From Bacteroidota bacterium (lineage in GTDB: Bacteria > Bacteroidota > Bacteroidia > NS11-12g > UBA955), in NCBI GenBank assembly GCA_018333525.1, contig JAGXTF010000043.1, forward strand, positions 1 through 64,000: 64,000 bases of DNA, in the 5' to 3' direction. The translations under genes and the position numbers were made by a program. Every line of letters starts with the position of its first letter. Position 1 is the first letter of the stretch. The notes below the pieces were generated by a model. That model worked only from the letters and a program-made list of their open reading frames with translations. It ran no database searches and was not told where the DNA came from. Below are positions 53,244-64,000 of the stretch, piece by piece.

Positions 53244-55010
53244 ATGAATTTTCTGAAATCTATTTTGGCCAGCATCATTGGCTTTATTGTGGGACTGGGT
53301 TTGGTGGTATTGTTATTCTTTATCATTATCGCCGGAATTGTAAGCAACATCAATAAAAAACCGGAGGTGAAAGGCAACACTGTGCTTGAACTCCGAATAG
53401 CAGGAGCGGTCCCCGAAAGACTGGCGGAGAATCCCTTTGCTAATTTTGGTCAGGGACAAGCACAAGATTTAAATCCGACTGTGGGTTTGGATAAAATTAT
53501 TTCAGGATTGGAATATGCTGCAAAAGACAAGCATATAAAAGGAGTAATTCTTCGGCCGGATTTATATGCAGGAGGGCTTGCCACTGCTGAAGAAATCCGT
53601 TCACAGATTCTGAAATTCAGAAAAAGCGGAAAATTTGTTTATGCATATGCAGAAGTGCTTACCGACGGGGGCTATTTTATTGCTACTGCCTGTGATAAGA
53701 TTTACCTGAACCCAAAAGGATTTCTGGAATTCAACGGATTCAGCGGTAAGGTTGCTTTTTATAAAGGAATGCTTGACAAAATCGGAGTAAAATTCGAAGT
53801 TTTTAAAGCAGGCAAATACAAAGGTGCGGTTGAACCTTTCATTCAAACATCGTTAAGCGAGCCCAACCGACAGCAAATACGCGATTATGTAAACCAATTG
53901 TTTGGTTACCATATTAAATCTATAAGTGAAGCACGTAAAATAGATTCAGCTGAACTGGCAGATATCGCTAATAAATTTTTAGCCAGAACTGCGGCCAAAG
54001 CCCTGCAATATAAATTGGTAGATGGTTTGAAATATGAGGATGAAGTAGAAGCAGAAATCCGATCAAAAATTGGATTAAAAAAAGAAGACAAATACAAGCC
54101 AATGGCTTTCGCCAGCTATGTAAAATCTGATTTAGATGAAAAATATCATAGCGATAAAATAGCAGTGATTTACGCCACAGGTGACATCAATATGGGTAAA
54201 AATGAAAGTGGCGATGGAATTGGAAGTGAAACACTAGCCGCGAATATTCGCAAAGCCAGACTGGATGAAAAAATCAAAGCGGTTGTATTGCGCGTAAATA
54301 GCCCGGGTGGCAGCAGCAATGCGAGCGACATCATTGCAAGAGAAATAGAAATGTGCAAAAAAGTAAAACCTGTAATCATTTCTTTCGGAGATGTGGCGGC
54401 TAGCGGCGGATATTATATATCCTGTGTTGGCGACAGCATTTTTGCATACCACAACAGTGTAACCGGTTCTATTGGAGTTTTTGCATTAGTACCGAATACT
54501 TCAGGTCTGTATAAGGATAAATTGGGATTGAGTTTTGAAACCGTGCCTACAGGAGAATTTGCTGCAGGATGGCGTCCGGATGAGGCACTGAGTGAAGGAA
54601 TGCGCCAATATTTTCAGGAAATGGTAAATGAAGTTTATGGTGATTTTATTGGAATAGTTGCGAAAGGAAGAAAGCTGGATACATCGGTAGTTGCAGGCCT
54701 TGCAGAAGGACATGTTTATACTGCTATTGCTGCAAAAAAACTTGGATTGATTGACAATTACGGCGGTATTCAAAGAGCTATTCAAAGTGCAGCCTGGAAG
54801 GCAAAACTCAAGGAATACAGGGTTGTAAGTCTACCGGATTTAAAATCACCATGGGAAATGTTTTTTGGTAATCCGGATGATGAAGATATGAGCAGTAAAA
54901 TTTTAGCTTCTCAATTGGGAGAATTTTATGCGCCAATTAAAGAACTTAAAAGGATACAGAGCAAAAGTGGTCTTCAAATGATCATGCCCTGGGAAGTAAA
55001 AATCGATTAG
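53244..55010 (+). CDS. sppA: Signal peptide peptidase SppA, 67-kDa type
   Basis: Membrane-bound serine protease that degrades cleaved signal peptides. The 588-residue protein has one N-terminal transmembrane helix (about 10-35) and two tandem ClpP-like domains. The Lys/Ser dyad of the 67K type is present: Lys193 in GKYKGAVEPF and Ser387 in DVAASGGYYIS, preceded by VNSPGGSS. ATG at 53244. A strong intrinsic terminator follows. Confidence 0.96.
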   Translation: MNFLKSILASIIGFIVGLGLVVLLFFIIIAGIVSNINKKPEVKGNTVLELRIAGAVPERLAENPFANFGQGQAQDLNPTVGLDKIISGLEYAAKDKHIKGVILRPDLYAGGLATAEEIRSQILKFRKSGKFVYAYAEVLTDGGYFIATACDKIYLNPKGFLEFNGFSGKVAFYKGMLDKIGVKFEVFKAGKYKGAVEPFIQTSLSEPNRQQIRDYVNQLFGYHIKSISEARKIDSAELADIANKFLARTAAKALQYKLVDGLKYEDEVEAEIRSKIGLKKEDKYKPMAFASYVKSDLDEKYHSDKIAVIYATGDINMGKNESGDGIGSETLAANIRKARLDEKIKAVVLRVNSPGGSSNASDIIAREIEMCKKVKPVIISFGDVAASGGYYISCVGDSIFAYHNSVTGSIGVFALVPNTSGLYKDKLGLSFETVPTGEFAAGWRPDEALSEGMRQYFQEMVNEVYGDFIGIVAKGRKLDTSVVAGLAEGHVYTAIAAKKLGLIDNYGGIQRAIQSAAWKAKLKEYRVVSLPDLKSPWEMFFGNPDDEDMSSKILASQLGEFYAPIKELKRIQSKSGLQMIMPWEVKID

Positions 55011-55030
55011 AAGCTTCCTCAAAATATTTT

Positions 55031-55058
55031 AAAAAGGCCTGCAATTGCAGGCCTTTTT
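55031..55058 (+). terminator. Intrinsic terminator of sppA
   Basis: A perfect 12-bp inverted repeat (55031-55042 with 55047-55058) around AATT, with A5/T5 ends; effective on either strand. It starts 20 nt after the sppA stop. Confidence 0.92.
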
Positions 55059-55121
55059 TGTAACCCTGAAGATTGGTATTCGTATAGCAATTGTAACTTT
55101 ACAAAAATCTCAAAGTCTGCT

Positions 55122-55799
55122 GTGAAATTGACCAGCCAACTTTTTCGAAGCCAAATCTTTAATGCTGTAAGTGTTTTATCTCTGATTTTTGTTCAGGAAC
55201 AAAAGCTAACTGCCCAATTGGACACGCTGCGTTTCCCTTCAGTTTGGATAGATAACAATCCATTTCAAACCATATTCAATGGCATGGCTAATCTGGGTTT
55301 CAACTTTGGAATCAAACAGAAATATGCGGTTGGAATAGGTTTGGTTCAATACCACGACTGGTGGAATAAAAATTATCATGAGAACCAAAACTACTGGGGT
55401 TATAGTCTGCGGTTCAGACACCGTTATTCGCGCATGCACTCCATTGCACAATATGGAATTGCAGAATTCAATTCTGTATACAATACGTTTAACCAGCAAT
55501 TTCAATTTCAATCCGGCAGCACACAATGGAACAAAACGATTCTGATATCAGAACGGTTTCAATCCTTGTCATATGGGTTTGGTTTGTTTGGTACAGGTAA
55601 GAGAAATCGTTTTCCACTGGAAGTATCACTGGGATTAGGTTTTGGCATTCGCAAGGTGCAATATTTGGGATTGACCGATTTTGAAAACAGATATATAATG
55701 GAACACCCTGGAATGCAACCTCCACAATTTGAACCCGGCCGTAAAAACAAGGTTATTTTAGCCGGGGGCTTTCGTTTTGGAGTTATATTGTTTCGATAA
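55122..55799 (+). CDS. Exported hypothetical protein, probable outer-membrane beta-barrel
   Basis: A 225-residue protein with a signal peptide-like N-terminus (NAVSVLSLIFVQEQKLTAQ) and a mature part rich in Phe, Tyr, Gly and Gln, with alternating strands (YAVGIGLVQYHDWW, YWGYSLRFRHRYSRM) and a C-terminal strand ending in Phe-Arg (FRFGVILFR). The displayed start is GTG at 55122; no ATG gives a fuller signal peptide. Unknown family. It lies between sppA and the paa regulator and is transcribed in the same direction as both. Confidence 0.62.
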   Translation: MKLTSQLFRSQIFNAVSVLSLIFVQEQKLTAQLDTLRFPSVWIDNNPFQTIFNGMANLGFNFGIKQKYAVGIGLVQYHDWWNKNYHENQNYWGYSLRFRHRYSRMHSIAQYGIAEFNSVYNTFNQQFQFQSGSTQWNKTILISERFQSLSYGFGLFGTGKRNRFPLEVSLGLGFGIRKVQYLGLTDFENRYIMEHPGMQPPQFEPGRKNKVILAGGFRFGVILFR

Positions 55800-55863
55800 C
55801 GGACATGAAATTTTAAACCATTCCAAATAGCAAAAATCGAGAACCATGTTGTATATTTTTTGC

Positions 55864-55896
55864 TATATTTGCATAAAAACTAACGATCGTTAGTTT
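55864..55896 (+). promoter_or_regulatory. paa operon promoter box with overlapping 20-bp TetR-type operator palindrome
   Basis: A TATATTTG -7-like box (55864-55871) is followed 5 nt later by a perfect 20-bp palindrome (55877-55896; half-site aaactaacga). The ATG of the tetR gene is at 55905. A repressor bound there would cover the expected transcription start. Perfect palindromes of the form taacg/cgtta are typical TetR operators, including those of phenylacetate regulators. No good -33 element is visible at the usual spacing. Confidence 0.75.
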
Positions 55897-55904
55897 CGAT
55901 TTTT

Positions 55905-56474
55905 ATGGAACAAAGCAGGAGAAATCAGATTTTGGAAGTGGCACAGAAAATGATGCGTGACAGCGGTTTTCATGGCACATCCATGCGGGATATAGCGGCA
56001 GCAATGAATATGGAAGCTGCGAGCTTATACAACCATATTTCCGGTAAGGAAGAAATTTTGAAAAGCACCTGTTTTGGACTGGCTGAAAAATTCCAAAGTG
56101 GCATTGATGAAGTTAACGATATTTACTTTAATGCAGTAGAAAAGCTTCAAATGGCAGTTAAAAGCCACGTGCAACTGCTAACTGAAAATCTGGATGCCAG
56201 TTTTGTATTTATACATGAATGGCGAAACCTCAATGAGCCATATAGAGCCGAATTTGTGCATTTAAGGGATAAGTATGAAAATGCCTTTCGTGTCATTCTT
56301 CAAAACGGAGAAGATGAAGGTCTGTTTAAGGAAGTAGACTACAAATTTGCTGTACTTACCATACTTTCCTCCATGAACTGGGTAGTAGAATGGTACAAGC
56401 CGGATGGCGGAATGACACCAGTTCAAATTGCAGAAAAACTCACTGATTTTATCCTCAGCGGACTTAAAAAATAA
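55905..56474 (+). CDS. TetR-family transcriptional regulator (probable paa repressor)
   Basis: A 189-residue regulator. The N-terminal helix-turn-helix (about residues 5-50: ILEVAQKMMRDSGFHGTSMRDIAAAMNMEAASLYNHISGKEEIL) is classical TetR. The C-terminal domain (about 70-185) would bind an inducer. First gene of the paa transcript, 14 nt before paaA, and it has a palindromic operator directly upstream, so it probably represses itself and the operon and is released by phenylacetyl-CoA, as PaaR-type regulators are in other bacteria. The inducer is inferred. Confidence 0.92.
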   Translation: MEQSRRNQILEVAQKMMRDSGFHGTSMRDIAAAMNMEAASLYNHISGKEEILKSTCFGLAEKFQSGIDEVNDIYFNAVEKLQMAVKSHVQLLTENLDASFVFIHEWRNLNEPYRAEFVHLRDKYENAFRVILQNGEDEGLFKEVDYKFAVLTILSSMNWVVEWYKPDGGMTPVQIAEKLTDFILSGLKK

Positions 56475-56488
56475 AGAAACCAAATCCT

Positions 56489-57481
56489 ATGTACGGAAAC
56501 GCCTATATTGAAAACGATGGCAAACAGACCAATAGCATGTTTGCAGATGAAGATCCGATAAAACTTGCGGAATTTGAAGCGCGAATTGCAGCCGGAGAGA
56601 AAATTGAACCTCAGGACTGGATGCCGAAGGAATATCGCAAACAACTGATTCGGATGATTGAACAGCATGCCCATTCCGAAATTATCGGTGCTTTGCCGGA
56701 AGGAACATGGATTACCCGGGCACCGGGATTTCGCCGCAAACTGGCTTTGATGGCCAAAGTGCAGGATGAAGTAGGGCACGCACAATTGCTCTATTCCGCT
56801 TGTGAAACATTGGGCAAAAGCAGAGAGCAAATGGTAAATGACTTAATTGACGGAAAAAGCAAATACAGCAATGTATTCAATTATCCTGCAGTTACCTGGG
56901 CAGATAGCGCTGTAATCGCCTGGCTTATTGATGCCGGTGCAATTGTAAACCAGATTGCGAACAGTAAAGGTAGTTATGGGCCTTATTGCAGGGCTTTGGA
57001 GCGGATTTGTGCAGAAGAATCCTTTCATCTGAAATATGGGCATGACAATGTTGTTTTTCTGGCAACCGGAACACCCATTCAACGACAAATGGTACAGGAA
57101 GCATTAACACGCTGGTGGCCTCCAATAATGCATTTTTTCGGTCCTTCCGATAAAATTTCAGTCCATACAGAAACATTGATGAAATGGAAGGTAAAAATGG
57201 CTTCCAATGATGACATGCGCCAACAGTTTCTGAATATGTATGTGCCAAAAATCTGGGATTTGGGATTGGTTATACCGGATCCGAATCTGAAGAAAAATGA
57301 AGCTACCGGCAAATGGGATTATACCGAACCGGATTGGGAAGTTTTCAAACAGGTAATCAACGGAAATGGCCCATGCAATGCAGAAAGACTGGCAGTTCGC
57401 AGAATGGCAGAAGAGAAAGGACGTTGGGTGCGTCGGGCTATTCTTTCGAAAGAGAAAAAATATGTGGCTCCTTTGGCATAA
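56489..57481 (+). CDS. paaA: 1,2-phenylacetyl-CoA epoxidase subunit A (catalytic)
   Basis: Catalytic subunit of the di-iron epoxidase that converts phenylacetyl-CoA to its ring-1,2-epoxide. The 330-residue protein has both ExxH metal motifs: Glu94/His97 in DEVGHAQ and Glu177/His180 in EESFHLKYGH, and the N-terminal QDWMPKEYRKQLIRMIEQHAHSE block. It forms a complex with PaaC, with PaaB and PaaE completing the enzyme. Located 14 nt after the tetR gene and 50 nt before the unusual T9SS cargo gene. Confidence 0.97.
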   Translation: MYGNAYIENDGKQTNSMFADEDPIKLAEFEARIAAGEKIEPQDWMPKEYRKQLIRMIEQHAHSEIIGALPEGTWITRAPGFRRKLALMAKVQDEVGHAQLLYSACETLGKSREQMVNDLIDGKSKYSNVFNYPAVTWADSAVIAWLIDAGAIVNQIANSKGSYGPYCRALERICAEESFHLKYGHDNVVFLATGTPIQRQMVQEALTRWWPPIMHFFGPSDKISVHTETLMKWKVKMASNDDMRQQFLNMYVPKIWDLGLVIPDPNLKKNEATGKWDYTEPDWEVFKQVINGNGPCNAERLAVRRMAEEKGRWVRRAILSKEKKYVAPLA

Positions 57482-57531
57482 ATCTGCGCAACTAAAAACA
57501 CAAAATACCGTCTAAGAGGAAAATCCAATTT

Positions 57532-58980
57532 ATGCTCCAAAAACTCCTTTTAAACACCGTATTGTGTTCTACTTTTTGTGTTTCGGCACAGATCATACCA
57601 AATAACAATTTCGAAAATTGGAAAAGCACTTCAGAAATATCTCCGGAGAACTGGAAAACATTTGGAGCTGTTCAAAAAGTTGCCGGAAAAAGCAGCGGAT
57701 TTTCAATTAAACTGAGCAATAACAGTAGTACAGGTCAATTGAGTGTAATGGCTCAAATGCGCATCGATTCTTCCATATTTTACAAACCTGCATTTTCGTA
57801 TGCGGCAAATCCGGATAGCGTTACCATTGTTTACAGACCTTTATTAGGAACGGACACCGCTTATTTCAAATTTGGATTTACCACCACCGGCGAGGAAATA
57901 CCAGTGCTTGCTTTAGAATTTGCTTTGGGAGGCAATAGTGGACAATGGACAAGTGCCACCTTCCCTATTCCATACACCAACCCCACTCCATTGCTTTCTG
58001 CCGATTCAGGTTATGCCATTATTTCCAGTGCAGATGAAGTTTTTGGACCCTTTGGTTCAGGTAGTATTGAAATTGATCAAATATCCTTTAAATACACAAA
58101 CAACAATCCTGCACCAGATATTCCAAACGGCGCTTTGGAGAACTGGCATTCCTATGCTGTAGAACACCCTGACGCATGGGCAACCACTCCATTGTTTTTA
58201 CAAAAACAGGGCTTTCAAATCAATGAAAGTTCTAAAACTACCGATGCATATTCCGGAAGCAGTGGAATTGTGCTGCGAGGAATAACTATAGACAATCCAC
58301 TTACACAAAGCATAGATTCTTTACCCGGACAGGCCATCACCTTGCGGGATCCTCAAAATCCCATTATGAGTGACCTGGATATTTTTAGTCCCACCTTTGC
58401 TGTTTCTGCTAGATACAGCAGCCTTCGTGGTTACGTGAAATCTGATTTGAAAGGCGGGGACCGGGCTGTTGCATGGGTAAACTTCTTTAGCGGTGATAGC
58501 GTGGTTGGTTCTGCCATTTTTAGTGATCCCAACAACCATAGTAACTACATATCCTTTTCAGAAGACATTACCTGGGACAGTACATTTTCCGGCATTCCAG
58601 ACAGTGCAACTGTTCTGTTAATGCTCACCGATTCTATGTATTTTGGGTTTAGTGATGCACAGAGTTTTGCTCAATTTGACAATCTTTCATTTGAAAACTG
58701 GAATTCATCGGTTAAAAAAGTAAGTACTGCATATAAAACTGCTGTGTTCCCGAATCCAAGCAATGGTACCATCGGTTTCCGGGGACAGGTGCCATCTGGC
58801 AACTACACACTGACAATTACATCGTCAAATGGCGCTGAAGTTTATACTGAATGCGGAGAAACACCAAATGGCAAATTGATTCGTTCCCTGAATCTGAGCC
58901 ATTTACAAAATGGAATTTATACACTTACCCTTATATCCAATCAAGAAAAGTTCAATCAAAAATTAATCATCATTAAATGA
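57532..58980 (+). CDS. T9SS type A sorted protein with two tandem modules, inside the paa operon
   Basis: A 482-residue exported protein between paaA and paaB. It has a signal peptide (MLQKLLLNTVLCSTFCVSAQ) and two tandem beta-rich modules of about 190 residues, each starting with an N-x-x-ENW segment (NNFENWKST near residue 23 and GALENWHSY near 200) and ending with an I-D-Q-I-S-F / F-D-N-L-S-F strand. This resembles PCMD-type (putative carbohydrate-binding) modules of Bacteroidota. The C-terminal 75 residues are a type A sorting domain (FPNPSNGTIGF...SHLQNGIYTLTL...IIIK). Its TGA overlaps the paaB ATG by 4 nt (ATGA), so paaB translation is probably coupled to it. No known role in phenylacetate catabolism. 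Surface binding of a substrate is one possibility. Confidence 0.85.
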   Translation: MLQKLLLNTVLCSTFCVSAQIIPNNNFENWKSTSEISPENWKTFGAVQKVAGKSSGFSIKLSNNSSTGQLSVMAQMRIDSSIFYKPAFSYAANPDSVTIVYRPLLGTDTAYFKFGFTTTGEEIPVLALEFALGGNSGQWTSATFPIPYTNPTPLLSADSGYAIISSADEVFGPFGSGSIEIDQISFKYTNNNPAPDIPNGALENWHSYAVEHPDAWATTPLFLQKQGFQINESSKTTDAYSGSSGIVLRGITIDNPLTQSIDSLPGQAITLRDPQNPIMSDLDIFSPTFAVSARYSSLRGYVKSDLKGGDRAVAWVNFFSGDSVVGSAIFSDPNNHSNYISFSEDITWDSTFSGIPDSATVLLMLTDSMYFGFSDAQSFAQFDNLSFENWNSSVKKVSTAYKTAVFPNPSNGTIGFRGQVPSGNYTLTITSSNGAEVYTECGETPNGKLIRSLNLSHLQNGIYTLTLISNQEKFNQKLIIIK

Positions 58981-59357
58981 CAATTCATTCCCTCGATCCA
59001 AGAGTTAACCGGGCAGAAATTGATGGAGAAGCCAAAATTGGGCATCTCGACGAATTCGATTACTGGCAAACCTATGAAGTTTTTGTACAGATCAAAAGAG
59101 GAACCCACCACAGTCACGTTGGCAGCGTTCATGCACCAGACCCGGAAATGGCAATATTATTTGCGAAAGAACAATACACCAGAAGAGGTGTCTGTGTGAA
59201 CCTTTGGGTAGTTAAAACTTCGGACATTTTTACGACGGAATATAACGATTCAGACATTTTTGAAACCACACCGGAGAAGTATCATAGAGATCCGGAAAGC
59301 TATAAAGTGATGGACAGAATTAAGGCTTACAAAGAAAAACATAACTCCCAATCTTAA
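58977..59357 (+). CDS. paaB: 1,2-phenylacetyl-CoA epoxidase subunit B
   Basis: Small structural/regulatory subunit required for epoxidase activity. The 126-residue protein contains the family core WQTYEVFVQIKRGTHHSHVGSVHAPDPEMAILFAKEQYTRR followed by a C-terminal helical tail. The N-terminus is somewhat longer than in some PaaB proteins. ATG overlaps the stop of the T9SS cargo gene (ATGA), and paaC starts 12 nt downstream. Confidence 0.95.
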   Translation: MTIHSLDPRVNRAEIDGEAKIGHLDEFDYWQTYEVFVQIKRGTHHSHVGSVHAPDPEMAILFAKEQYTRRGVCVNLWVVKTSDIFTTEYNDSDIFETTPEKYHRDPESYKVMDRIKAYKEKHNSQS

Positions 59358-59369
59358 TAAACTTAACAA

Positions 59370-60140
59370 ATGGAATTTACAGAAAAACACGTAGAAGGTC
59401 TGAAAGACCTGTTGTACAAAATGGCTGATGATCTGTTGATTATCGGACACAGAAACAGCGAATGGACAGGACTTGGTCCTGTTTTGGAAGAAGACATTGC
59501 TTTTAGCAGCATGGCTCAGGATAAACTTGGACAGGCAAATGCACTTTACGGGTTGTTGCATGAATTGGGGGAAAGCGACCCCGATACCATCGCATTTATG
59601 CGTAACGACAAACAGTTTCATTGCTGCCAATTGGTAGAAATGCCAATCGGAGGTTACGACTTCAGTCTCACCCGACATTTCTTTTATGATCATGCCGATG
59701 CTATTCGCTTCGAAATGTTGAAAGACTCGGTATTTGAGCCCTTAGCAATGGTTGCCAATAAATTCCGTGGTGAAGTTAAATACCACACCATGCATGCAGA
59801 CACCTGGATGAGACATTTGGGAAAAGGCGATGAAACCAGCAAGGCACGTATGCAAAATGCAATAAACGAAACTTTTCCTATGGCATTGGGCATTTTTGAG
59901 GAAAGCATTTACGAACAAGAATTGATGGAATCTGGAATATTTGCAGGTGAAAAAACATTGAAAGAGATGTGGCTTACCAAGGTAGAACAGATAATTGAGT
60001 CCGCGGGACTTACACTTCCTGATATAAATTCGGTTACTCCGGTTTATGGTGGCAGAAAAGGCCAGCATAGCCAATATCTGCAACCGCTGTTGGAGGAAAT
60101 GACAGAGGTATTTCGGATAGATCCGGGAGCGGAATGGTAA
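59370..60140 (+). CDS. paaC: 1,2-phenylacetyl-CoA epoxidase subunit C (structural)
   Basis: Structural partner of PaaA in the heterotetramer; a ferritin-like fold without a functional di-iron site. The 256-residue protein has LLYKMADDLLIIGHRNSEWTGLGPVLEEDIAFSSMAQDKLGQANALYG and the later EVKYHTMHADTWMRHLG segment typical of PaaC. It follows paaB by 12 nt and is followed by a 103-nt gap with a tandem repeat before paaD. Confidence 0.95.
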   Translation: MEFTEKHVEGLKDLLYKMADDLLIIGHRNSEWTGLGPVLEEDIAFSSMAQDKLGQANALYGLLHELGESDPDTIAFMRNDKQFHCCQLVEMPIGGYDFSLTRHFFYDHADAIRFEMLKDSVFEPLAMVANKFRGEVKYHTMHADTWMRHLGKGDETSKARMQNAINETFPMALGIFEESIYEQELMESGIFAGEKTLKEMWLTKVEQIIESAGLTLPDINSVTPVYGGRKGQHSQYLQPLLEEMTEVFRIDPGAEW

Positions 60141-60150
60141 GGAAGAAGAA

Positions 60151-60187
60151 GTTACGGGTTACGAGTTACGAGTTACGAGTTACGGGT
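60151..60187 (+). repeat. 7-bp tandem repeat between paaC and paaD
   Basis: Five units of gttacga/gttacgg (60151-60185) plus a partial unit. It begins 10 nt after the paaC stop. No hairpin or promoter is evident in it; the unit number could vary by slippage. Confidence 0.9.
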
Positions 60188-60243
60188 AAAAAGGTGAACA
60201 CAAAGACACTATACTTTTGTTTGAATTGAGATAAGGCGGCACT

Positions 60244-60753
60244 TTGGATAGAGATATAACTATATTAAAAAATCTGGAAACAGAAATATTGGAGATGCTT
60301 TCTGAAGTGAAAGACCCTGAAATTCCGACTATTTCCATTGTGGATCTGGGTATAGTTACCGGGATTTCCGAGGATTCAGAAGGTACTATTCAGGTGAAGC
60401 TCACTCCTACTTTCAGCGGTTGTCCTGCATTAAAAATTATGGAGGAATTGGTTTCTCAAAAACTGAAAGAGAAGGGCATTTTAAAGCACCAGGTTATAAC
60501 AAGTTTTGAAGTACCCTGGAATACCAACCGCATAACAGAAAAGGGCCTGGAGGCTTTAAAAAAGCACGGTTTGGCACCACCTCCCAGGCATAAAGGTTAT
60601 ATAGAACTGGATGTGTTGAGCGATACACCCTGTCCTCTTTGTGGCAGTAGAAATACAACCATGCAAACTCCTTTTGGGCCTACACTTTGCAGAAGTATGC
60701 ACTACTGCAACAATTGCAAAAATGCCTTTGAGGCATTCAAACCTGTAACCTAA
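60244..60753 (+). CDS. paaD: 1,2-phenylacetyl-CoA epoxidase assembly protein PaaD (DUF59 + zinc-ribbon)
   Basis: Required for epoxidase maturation, probably in iron-cluster delivery. The 169-residue protein has an N-terminal DUF59/MIP18-like domain (about 10-85: EVKDPEIPTISIVDLGIVTGI, FSGCPALKIMEE) and a C-terminal zinc-binding region (CPLCGS at about 129-134, then CNNCKNAFE). The start is TTG at 60244; a later ATG would cut into the DUF59 domain. No paaE (reductase) gene follows; the next gene is convergent, and the two stop codons overlap by 4 nt. Confidence 0.93.
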   Translation: MDRDITILKNLETEILEMLSEVKDPEIPTISIVDLGIVTGISEDSEGTIQVKLTPTFSGCPALKIMEELVSQKLKEKGILKHQVITSFEVPWNTNRITEKGLEALKKHGLAPPPRHKGYIELDVLSDTPCPLCGSRNTTMQTPFGPTLCRSMHYCNNCKNAFEAFKPVT

Positions 60754-61169
60754 GCAGGGTATTTCGACTTCATATACGCCACAGAACCTTTAATCAGTTC
60801 GTTTAGTACACTTACATTTACGTCGGCAAGTTTTTTAATATAGAGGCAGCCTTTGCCTGTTTTGAATTTGCCCAAATTTTCCAATAGGTCATCTCTTCTG
60901 TTAAATTCACCCATCAGGTATAGGGTAATATTTTGTTTTCTGGGTGAAAACCCTACCAAACACATGTCTCCTTCCCTACCGCTGTCGTATTTATAATGGT
61001 AACTTCCAAATCCAATAATGCTGCTTCCCCACATTACCGGAGATTCCCCTGTAACCGCCGACATGGTATCGGCTATTGCCAAACAATCCTTGCGAATACC
61101 TTCATCGGCAATTGTATTTAAAAAAGCATCTACACTGAGCTTGGATGCTTTTGTTTTATTCTCTGCCAT
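60750..61169 (-). CDS. DUF1801 domain-containing protein
   Basis: A 139-residue cytoplasmic protein of the DUF1801/YdhG-like fold. The hallmarks are VMWGSSIIGFGSYHYKYDSGREG, the LVGFSPRKQNITLYLM strand pair and LGKFKTGKGCLYIKKLADVNVSVL near the C-terminus. The molecular function of the family is not established. Convergent with paaD with overlapping stops, so it does not belong to the paa operon. Confidence 0.9.
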   Translation of the reverse strand: MAENKTKASKLSVDAFLNTIADEGIRKDCLAIADTMSAVTGESPVMWGSSIIGFGSYHYKYDSGREGDMCLVGFSPRKQNITLYLMGEFNRRDDLLENLGKFKTGKGCLYIKKLADVNVSVLNELIKGSVAYMKSKYPA

Positions 61170-61240
61170 AAGGCAAATTAGAAGTTAAATCTTATCAATA
61201 TCAAGTGAGAATTCCTTCTAAAACCACCAATTTCAAAAAA

Positions 61241-64000
61241 TCACCTTAAAAGATGAATGGTTCCCGAGAAAGTGAATTCCTTACCCTTCATATCCCAGGC
61301 TTTTATGTAATATGCATACACCCCATCCTGAGCTATTTCTCCATTATAGGTTCCGTTCCATGCATTCAGGCATTCATCTCTGTCGTATACTTTTTGGCCG
61401 TAACGGTTATAAATTTTCATATCGTATTTATAGAAGTAAATACCATCGGGATGAAAAGTCTCGTTGAGGTTATTGCGATTAGGCGTATATGCATTCGGGA
61501 TGAAAAAACGCATTGGTGGCGCAAACTCCGCGTAATTGGAAACTGACTGTGCATCATGGCTGCTGTCTTTTTGCAGAGGTTGATTTCTTATCGCGGTTAC
61601 ACGATAAACGAAGTCTTTTTCGCAGTATTTAGGCAGATTCTCATCTACATAATTCAAAGTTTCTCCGTCTACGTTTCCAATTTGTTCAAATGCGCTGCTG
61701 CCAATACTGCGCTCTATTCTGTATTCCTGAACACCTTCATTCCAGTAAACATAAGGGGTCCATGTCAATTCTGCATTTCCGGAAGCTGTGTATTCCTGTA
61801 TTTTCAATAAGATACTTCTGCCCACATTGCTCAATTCACTCTTCACGCCGCATTTATCGGTCATTTGCACCGAATAAGTATAGTATTGTCTGTTAACTTC
61901 AGTTTGGAAATCGTTGATCTGAAAAGAATCCGCAGAAATATGATTTTTAAATGTTTCCCAACCCATATTTCCATATTTATACACGGTATAATAATCAATA
62001 CCAAACTTTGGTTTGCGCGGTGCAATCCATTCTGTGTGGGTATACAAATTGTCATTAACAGTGGTACGCCAAACCTCAGGCGCAGGCACAACAATCAGAT
62101 GGAGCGGTTTTGCTCTGGCGGTGTCACTCCAGCTATTTTCCAAATTTCCGGCTTGCTCAAAAGCTTCAATTCTGTAATCATATATTACATGGCAATAAAT
62201 AGCAGTATCCAGATAATGGGTAATATTTCCAGGAACAGAATCCAACAAGGTAAATGTGTTTTCCTTATCGGTTTTTCTCCAAATGTGGTATTTTTTTACG
62301 TTCCAGCCGCTATAGGGACTCCAAACCACCCTGGCCGCGTTACTGTCACCTTGGGCTCTAACTTCTACTGTGCAGTGTGGAACTATTATAGTACTATCCG
62401 TTTCCATACCGCAATAATTTACCTGTGAAATGCGATGGCAATAGGAACGTGCCAATGTATTTAGTTGGGTAACAAATAAATTGGTATCATTTTTATTCTC
62501 GGAATATGCCCTGAGCTGCCATGAATTTTGCATCCAAACATACAGTTTGTATGCCTTAAAATCCGGCTCAATGGAGGCGTTGAATTTGGTTTCCGTAGTA
62601 AAATCGTTAACAACCGATGTTCTAAGCATGGTCAACGGTTTAGTTGGCAACGTATCCCCAACTTTTATAAATATCGGGAATTCTGCAGTATCCCTGCAGC
62701 CTAACACATCTTCTACTACCAGCATTGCCGGAATCTTACCTCTGCGATTGGCTGGAACCAATACTTCATTTCCCGTAGGCATAAGTATACCGTCTAACCA
62801 CAATTGTCGGCTTGCAAGAAATGTATCTCCAACCGAGGTATGTTTTACAATTGCGTCTTCACCGAGGCAATACTCTGATTTTCCAGGCTCCATTGCCGGT
62901 GTAATTGTAAATACGCGGAATTGACCTGTAGTGGTATCTGTGCACCCGTGGTTGCTTTTGACTATCAACTCCACATTTCTGTTTTTAACACCCTTAAATC
63001 CAAGTGTTAACGGATTTAAAGAGCCGGCAGAATTACCATCCACTATCCATTGCATTGCAGAAAGAGAATCCCCCTTCATGTCCGATTTCTGATAAATATC
63101 ATAAACCTGGTTATCGCAAACATTTTTGCTTTCAAAGTTTGCATCCGGATTTGCATATACCTGAATCGTGTCAGTTGGATCCGGAGAAAACCTGCAGCCG
63201 TTGGAATCCACTATTATTAATCTCGGGATATAAATACCGGGTCTGGTGTATTTATGTTTTTTTCCATCCAGATCCAGCACAGCGCCGTCCCCCATATCGA
63301 ATTCGAGGTTTTTAATTTTACCTTGTAAATGGGTAGTAAGATTCAACTCCAAAGGTGTGCATCCTTCTTTTTTATCAAATTCGTAAGTTCCATTCGGACC
63401 GTTTATTACAACAAGGTTTGGTATAAACGCAGTATCCATGCAGCCTGCAGAATTGGCTATTATCAGTTTTACCGAATACTTTCCGGGATAAATGTACAAT
63501 TTACCGGGTTGCAATTTGTTTGAAAAGGTATTGTCGCCAAAGCTCCAAAGTCTTTGCACAATTGGGTATTCGGGAGAAACACTGAGATCTGTAAAAAACA
63601 CATCCAATGGCGGGCAGGCAGCTGTGGTGTCACTTACAGTAAATGCCGCAACAGGTTTGCCATTTTTCGCAAATACGGAAAGTGTATCTATGCTTTCACA
63701 ACCCTGATCATCGCGAATCGTCAATTTTGCTGTTACTTTTCTCGAACCTTTTACTATCGCCGTATCAAATAATCCGGTAGAAATACGATAGCCCATATCC
63801 CATTCATAACTATAATTTGCAGCTCCTTTTTTGAGGATTTCCCCATCAAAACGAATGAGACTTTCGGTGCAAATATCCCCAGTGGTTTTTGATTTGATTT
63901 TAGTTCTGAAACCATGAACTACATATCTAAAAGTATCCATGGTTCCACAACCAGCTGAATCTTCGCGTACCAAATAAATGTTTAAAGAATCGAAGTGAGA
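61241..64000 (-). CDS. Secreted PKD/fibronectin-like protein with type B T9SS C-terminal domain (5' end outside window)
   Basis: The C-terminal 919 or so residues of a large exported protein; the frame is open to the right edge, so the start and signal peptide lie beyond the window. Upstream codons to the edge read SHFDSLNIYLVREDSAGCG, continuing a PKD-like repeat pattern. Several PKD domains follow (for example FTDLSVSPEYPIVQRLWSFGD). About 500 residues from the end, fibronectin-like segments with W-x-x-Y strands begin. The last 90 residues are a CHU_C/gliding-motility-associated domain (FIPNAYTPNRNNLNETF...IYNRYGQKVYDRD...DGVYAYYIKA). Surface adhesion or gliding-related function is probable. 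Its architecture parallels the protein at 3227-6922. Confidence 0.86.
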   Translation of the reverse strand, partial: SHFDSLNIYLVREDSAGCGTMDTFRYVVHGFRTKIKSKTTGDICTESLIRFDGEILKKGAANYSYEWDMGYRISTGLFDTAIVKGSRKVTAKLTIRDDQGCESIDTLSVFAKNGKPVAAFTVSDTTAACPPLDVFFTDLSVSPEYPIVQRLWSFGDNTFSNKLQPGKLYIYPGKYSVKLIIANSAGCMDTAFIPNLVVINGPNGTYEFDKKEGCTPLELNLTTHLQGKIKNLEFDMGDGAVLDLDGKKHKYTRPGIYIPRLIIVDSNGCRFSPDPTDTIQVYANPDANFESKNVCDNQVYDIYQKSDMKGDSLSAMQWIVDGNSAGSLNPLTLGFKGVKNRNVELIVKSNHGCTDTTTGQFRVFTITPAMEPGKSEYCLGEDAIVKHTSVGDTFLASRQLWLDGILMPTGNEVLVPANRRGKIPAMLVVEDVLGCRDTAEFPIFIKVGDTLPTKPLTMLRTSVVNDFTTETKFNASIEPDFKAYKLYVWMQNSWQLRAYSENKNDTNLFVTQLNTLARSYCHRISQVNYCGMETDSTIIVPHCTVEVRAQGDSNAARVVWSPYSGWNVKKYHIWRKTDKENTFTLLDSVPGNITHYLDTAIYCHVIYDYRIEAFEQAGNLENSWSDTARAKPLHLIVVPAPEVWRTTVNDNLYTHTEWIAPRKPKFGIDYYTVYKYGNMGWETFKNHISADSFQINDFQTEVNRQYYTYSVQMTDKCGVKSELSNVGRSILLKIQEYTASGNAELTWTPYVYWNEGVQEYRIERSIGSSAFEQIGNVDGETLNYVDENLPKYCEKDFVYRVTAIRNQPLQKDSSHDAQSVSNYAEFAPPMRFFIPNAYTPNRNNLNETFHPDGIYFYKYDMKIYNRYGQKVYDRDECLNAWNGTYNGEIAQDGVYAYYIKAWDMKGKEFTFSGTIHLLR

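Follow-up and report, generated by a model that had tools for sequence, protein, structure and literature searches.

Here we describe gene X, a T9SS cargo gene that lies between paaA and paaB of a phenylacetyl-CoA epoxidase operon in a Bacteroidota bacterium and that is most likely a real member of that operon, an argument built from its position, its overlap with paaB, the selection acting on it and the single operator that precedes the operon. Our preferred reading, to which we give roughly even odds (about 0.5), is that X encodes a PaaR-controlled surface lectin or adhesin with a role tied to phenylacetyl-CoA catabolism. The window, meaning the whole stretch of 64,000 nucleotides of contig JAGXTF010000043.1 that was analysed, contains the following features.

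55864-55871, + strand: TATATTTG, a Bacteroidota -7-like element (TAnnTTTG) upstream of the TetR gene, from a pattern scan
55877-55896, no strand assigned: AAACTAACGATCGTTAGTTT, a perfect 20-bp palindrome just before the TetR gene, predicted PaaR operator
55905-56474, + strand: TetR-family regulator (PF17932/PF00440), PaaR-like by position and operator
56489-57481, + strand: paaA, phenylacetyl-CoA epoxidase subunit A (TIGR02156, 446 bits, above cut-off)
57532-58980, + strand: gene X, T9SS type A cargo of 482 aa with an ATG start, between paaA and paaB
57532-57591, + strand: signal peptide of X, 20 aa, ending CVSAQ, read by eye; the N-termini of relatives show the same pattern in the alignment
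57592-58104, + strand: module 1, a beta-sandwich in the AlphaFold model, beginning IPNNNFENW, homologous to module 2
58105-58713, + strand: module 2, a PCMD/CBM16-like beta-sandwich, beginning IPNGALENW, from structure and profile matches
58744-58971, + strand: type A T9SS C-terminal sorting domain (PF18962, 1.9e-10)
58977-58980, + strand: ATGA, the last four bases of X, shared by the X stop and the paaB start
58977-59357, + strand: paaB (PF06243, 5.8e-27, well above cut-off)
59370-60140, + strand: paaC (TIGR02158, 229 bits, above cut-off)
60244-60753, + strand: paaD, the final operon gene (TIGR02159, 156 bits, above cut-off)

The first-pass annotation had placed an exported-protein gene between paaA and paaB with its stop overlapping the paaB start, and both statements hold: the coordinates are exact, NCBIfam and Pfam confirm that the flanking genes are true epoxidase genes, in the order paaA, paaB, paaC, paaD with X interposed after paaA, and the overlap is conserved in relatives. 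PaaB also scores 85.1 bits against TIGR02157, where the cut-off is 85.45. The next gene downstream of paaD is convergent, and the gap between paaC and paaD holds five copies of a 7-bp repeat, AGTTACG (60150-60184). The composition of X gives no sign of foreign DNA, its GC content (0.409) being close to that of its neighbours (0.41-0.44). The arrangement resembles the PaaR-paaABCD operon of Thermus thermophilus (TTHA0973-0969; PMC6651687), in which a TetR gene also comes first, followed by paaA, paaB, paaC and paaD, and in which the palindromic operator has the same form. The Thermus operon differs in that no T9SS cargo gene separates paaA from paaB, and in that it carries an aldehyde dehydrogenase/enoyl-CoA hydratase gene after paaD.

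A single operator appears to serve the whole operon. The palindrome core CTAACGATCGTTAG fits the Thermus PaaR consensus operator CNAACGNNCGTTNG quoted in PMC6651687, and this consensus has one exact match in the window (55880-55893), where 0.01 would be expected. In 67 of 81 loci the 120 bp that precede the TetR gene contain the TAAC-n-GTTA pattern, whose frequency elsewhere in the loci is 0.0096 per 120 bp, and the TetR gene of the relatives is likewise upstream of paaA. Only two CTAACNNNNGTTAG sites occur in the genome, the second behind an rpoC-like gene. No second operator was found inside the operon; pattern scans found neither an operator nor a -7-like element in the gap between paaA and X, nor a -7-like element at the end of X, and no terminator-like sites were seen on the + strand from paaA to paaD. 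Since there is one operator at the head, no internal terminator or operator and tight spacing, co-transcription of X with the paa genes has good, though indirect, support and is presumed here. The Bacteroidota -33/-7 pattern with fixed spacing had no match within the window, and no RNA families were found within 55000-61500. An internal sigma-70-type promoter that would explain the spacing was considered and rejected, X containing one weak + strand site and the region fewer such sites than its shuffles. The PaaR of Thermus responds to phenylacetyl-CoA (Sakamoto et al. 2011, as cited in PMC6651687), and by analogy the TetR protein of the window may do the same.

The first-pass annotation had allowed that X might be a chance insertion. 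This finds no support, because X is kept at the same site across three families under purifying selection, and an insertion in one genome is ruled out by the many relatives that share the site. In the window's order, 108 genomes were surveyed, 72 of which have the long-PaaB type of paa operon, with adjacency judged by the match coordinates of X and paaB and by direct reading of loci. X is at the same site in 37 of these 72 genomes, drawn from 13 of 21 genera and from both families (one carrier, G001, is counted although its contig end falls between X and paaB), so that comparison of the paaA-paaB interval, which could have shown the gene to be absent from all close relatives, shows the opposite. 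In a class survey of 395 genomes, which compared hit coordinates, took paaB from the matches listed and covered short-PaaB operons in part, X stood beside paaB outside the window's order, among those matches, only in G387 and G315 of family f12. Of the 21 genera of the order, 8 lack the gene at this junction, as does most of family f12, and where it is missing the spacing between paaA and paaB is usually 0-60 bp. All carriers that could be named are metagenome-assembled genomes, and hence we know of no cultured strain with X. Tandem X pairs occur in four loci (L084, L254, L263 and L270, the second copy in L270 being cut by the contig end), with the first X overlapping the second by 4 nt where this could be read. 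One locus (L075, in G031) has an in-frame stop inside X, either a possible pseudogene or an assembly error, and one genome bin (G069) has two paa operons, each with its own X (L257 and L258).

The conserved overlap raises the reading that X acts mainly in cis, as a translated spacer that sets the level of PaaB or brings paaB translation near the membrane. With starts taken from the longest ORF, an overlap with the following gene is present in 35 of the 41 paa-embedded copies of X that could be read and in none of 30 homologues located elsewhere; it is mostly 4 nt, or 28 nt where paaB has an upstream ATG. Such a role would also suit the solved epoxidase complex, in which PaaB bridges PaaAC pairs (PMC9493321). 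Against it, the protein sequence of X is under purifying selection, its sorting domain is present in all 26 of the 26 relatives scanned, and many relatives do without X. We know of no case of such a cis-acting spacer, and we regard this reading as highly improbable.

Selection and phylogeny point to a protein with a long history in the operon. Between close relatives, dN/dS of X is mostly 0.05-0.15 (two pairs reach 0.18 and 0.30), against about 0.02-0.04 for paaA, and from these rates X is a working protein under purifying selection that changes faster than PaaA; identity is about 20-39% for X and 80-90% for PaaA. A tree was built of 71 X homologues, comprising 23 from other places, 41 embedded in paa operons and seven now elsewhere, with the root assumed on the side of the 23. 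Those 23 form one group (99/97). Among the other 48, the seven copies that are not embedded come from genera g4, g5 and g6 (five copies) and from g164 of family f12 (two copies). The embedded label needs 3 changes on this tree, against 23 in shuffles. A strict single clade of all embedded copies was rejected (AU test, p 1e-6), with the g4/g5/g6 copies nesting inside, and we read this as relocation of those copies out of the operon; the tree is thus consistent with a single ancient entry into the operon, followed by two exits. The tree of PaaA, PaaB, PaaC and TetR groups members of the three families, with and without X, in a single clade of 68 rows, on which the presence of X needs 6 changes against 28.5 in shuffles. 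The simple story would be entry before the three families split, followed by vertical descent and about six losses.

The relocated copies of g4/g5/g6 adjoin a PKD-repeat T9SS protein and the operator is absent, while those of f12 g164 come after a dihydropteroate-synthase-like gene (named by eye), again with the operator absent. In five genomes of three genera (L127, L128, L129, L131 and L132), the relocated X follows a PKD-repeat protein of 616-724 aa, which has its own sorting domain in the members scanned. The genome of the window also has two tandem X paralogues elsewhere (L130, G000:C58:77761-80644), flanked by genes named by eye as a TerC-like membrane protein gene and a carA-like gene. 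Because the g4/g5/g6 copies persist elsewhere while nested among embedded ones, the tie of X to paa is not obligatory, and the exits from the operon together with the fast divergence of the sequence lead to the same conclusion.

This loose tie bears on a plausible competitor, which we place somewhat short of even odds: that X is an operon passenger, a useful surface lectin whose job is unrelated to phenylacetyl-CoA, which landed once, is co-expressed and stays by inertia because the overlap hinders clean excision. X-like genes of the same architecture are found at many places in the class, the copies that moved out in g4/g5/g6 and f12 g164 have survived in the absence of the operator, and dN/dS is 0.11 in one relocated pair. 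Unrelated genes have also invaded operon junctions in other lineages, so the paa operon seems open to insertion. The paaA-paaB junction itself holds a gene for a 23S rRNA-intervening-sequence protein in nine loci (L143, L146, L147, L174, L179, L181, L188, L192 and L219), a four-helix bundle of about 125 aa that is unrelated to X (PF05635, tested on L147), and the paaB-paaC junction (L218, L221, L223) or the paaC-paaD junction (L263) holds other genes, a polytopic membrane protein of about 470 aa and a cytochrome-c-peroxidase-like protein (by eye). However, loss of X that left a clean paaA-paaB junction has occurred several times, which makes inertia alone a weak explanation, and X has been retained in 13 genera while relocating only about twice.

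The protein itself has the architecture of type A T9SS cargo (Por_Secre_tail), with a signal peptide and a C-terminal sorting domain, although its gene, unlike those of such cargo, sits within a conserved cytoplasmic-enzyme operon with a 4-nt overlap. The type A sorting domain reported at first pass is borne out: PF18962 and TIGR04183 match at 41.3 and 34.5 bits, above both cut-offs, the C-terminal fold matches the T9SS sorting domains 8glk and 8qb1, and the T9SS translocon SprA/Sov is present in the genome (SprA, 2206 bits, above cut-off). X is thus presumably exported as a surface protein. The full-length AlphaFold model (pLDDT 86.9) has two beta-sandwiches and the sorting domain. The two tandem modules that had been described as N-x-x-ENW are truly homologous (hhalign probability 99.8, 1.7e-30), but the motif is really N-x-x-[F/L]-E-N-W.

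Modelled alone, module 2 (pLDDT 91) is predicted to have the PCMD fold and the jelly-roll beta-sandwich of known carbohydrate-binding modules (CBMs). Its best fold matches are the PCMD-type structures 4jrl, 3hbz, 3s30 and 4het (Z 15.6-17.0 over 188-189 residues), of which we take 4jrl and 4het to be PCMD members, followed by CBM16 (Z 14.0), a porphyran-binding CBM (8xmz, Z 13.2), and CBM61 and CBM4 (about 12). Searching the modules by profile, as had been proposed, succeeded in part: the sequence profile of module 2 reaches 3s30 and 3hbz with a weak match, whereas the Pfam PCMD model PF13201 does not match the window protein and matches 3 of 26 relatives weakly (best 1.7e-05). X therefore resembles the Bacteroides PCMD proteins in the fold of module 2 and in this weak profile match, and differs in that most X members are unmatched by the Pfam model and that X has two tandem modules and a T9SS domain. 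The predicted fold likewise resembles CBM16, the porphyran-binding CBM and CBM4 (Z 12-14), at a sequence identity of 7-19%. Because the best folds are PCMD and then carbohydrate-binding modules, glycan binding by the X modules is our leading guess; a CBM-like fold is no proof of sugar binding.

The same folds bear on the earlier speculation that X captures an aromatic compound or polymer outside the cell and so feeds the epoxidase. Membership of the operon favours capture, as does the inclusion of indole-compound-binding Stig cyclases in the CBM-like fold family. The speculation fares poorly nonetheless: the best matches are carbohydrate-binding modules, the operon has no uptake gene, homologues persist outside the operon, and the PaaK phenylacetate-CoA ligase (TIGR02155) was not found in the 97.8% complete genome, the same search giving matches in 10 of 14 control genomes. 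Since no such ligase was found, the substrate of the epoxidase may arise within the cell, phenylalanine being one candidate source, and the capture of external phenylacetate fits badly; we consider aromatic capture by X unlikely. A PaaE-like reductase encoded on another contig matches its family model over the full length, at 308.9 bits where the cut-off is 420.8.

Our preferred reading, that of a PaaR-controlled lectin or adhesin, would work as follows. X would have belonged for a long time, as the fifth structural gene, to a compact paaR-paaA-X-paaB-paaC-paaD operon, which a PaaR-like TetR protein would repress at one palindromic operator until a build-up of phenylacetyl-CoA relieves the repression, as in Thermus. 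X and the cytoplasmic epoxidase would then both be made from a single transcript, and ribosomes that finish X would probably go on to start paaB. The X protein would be exported via Sec and T9SS and either fixed to the cell surface or released, and its two CBM-like domains would bind a glycan or glycoconjugate at the surface, so that X would serve as a lectin or adhesin during growth on material that yields phenylacetyl-CoA, candidates being phenylalanine-rich protein or algal particles. We infer both the ligand and the reason for the tie to phenylacetyl-CoA. A bolder proposal, which we put forward tentatively and think rather doubtful, is a metabolite-controlled surface switch, in which phenylacetyl-CoA, acting through PaaR, induces a single transcript with overlapping genes that yields both a T9SS lectin and the ring-opening enzyme.

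Searches of the open literature brought up no account of a paa operon that contains a T9SS gene. X provides a clear example, open to testing, of a surface protein long kept inside an operon for cytoplasmic enzymes, and it brings together aromatic catabolism, a known regulator and T9SS export. It offers a starting point for working out what a large, unnamed family of T9SS proteins with two modules does, and it tests whether operon membership predicts the function of T9SS cargo, much of which is uncharacterised. The place of X in the operon suggests that sensing phenylacetyl-CoA may change the cell surface; were the surface switch true, aromatic amino-acid catabolism would directly remodel the cell surface in a large uncultured group of Bacteroidota.
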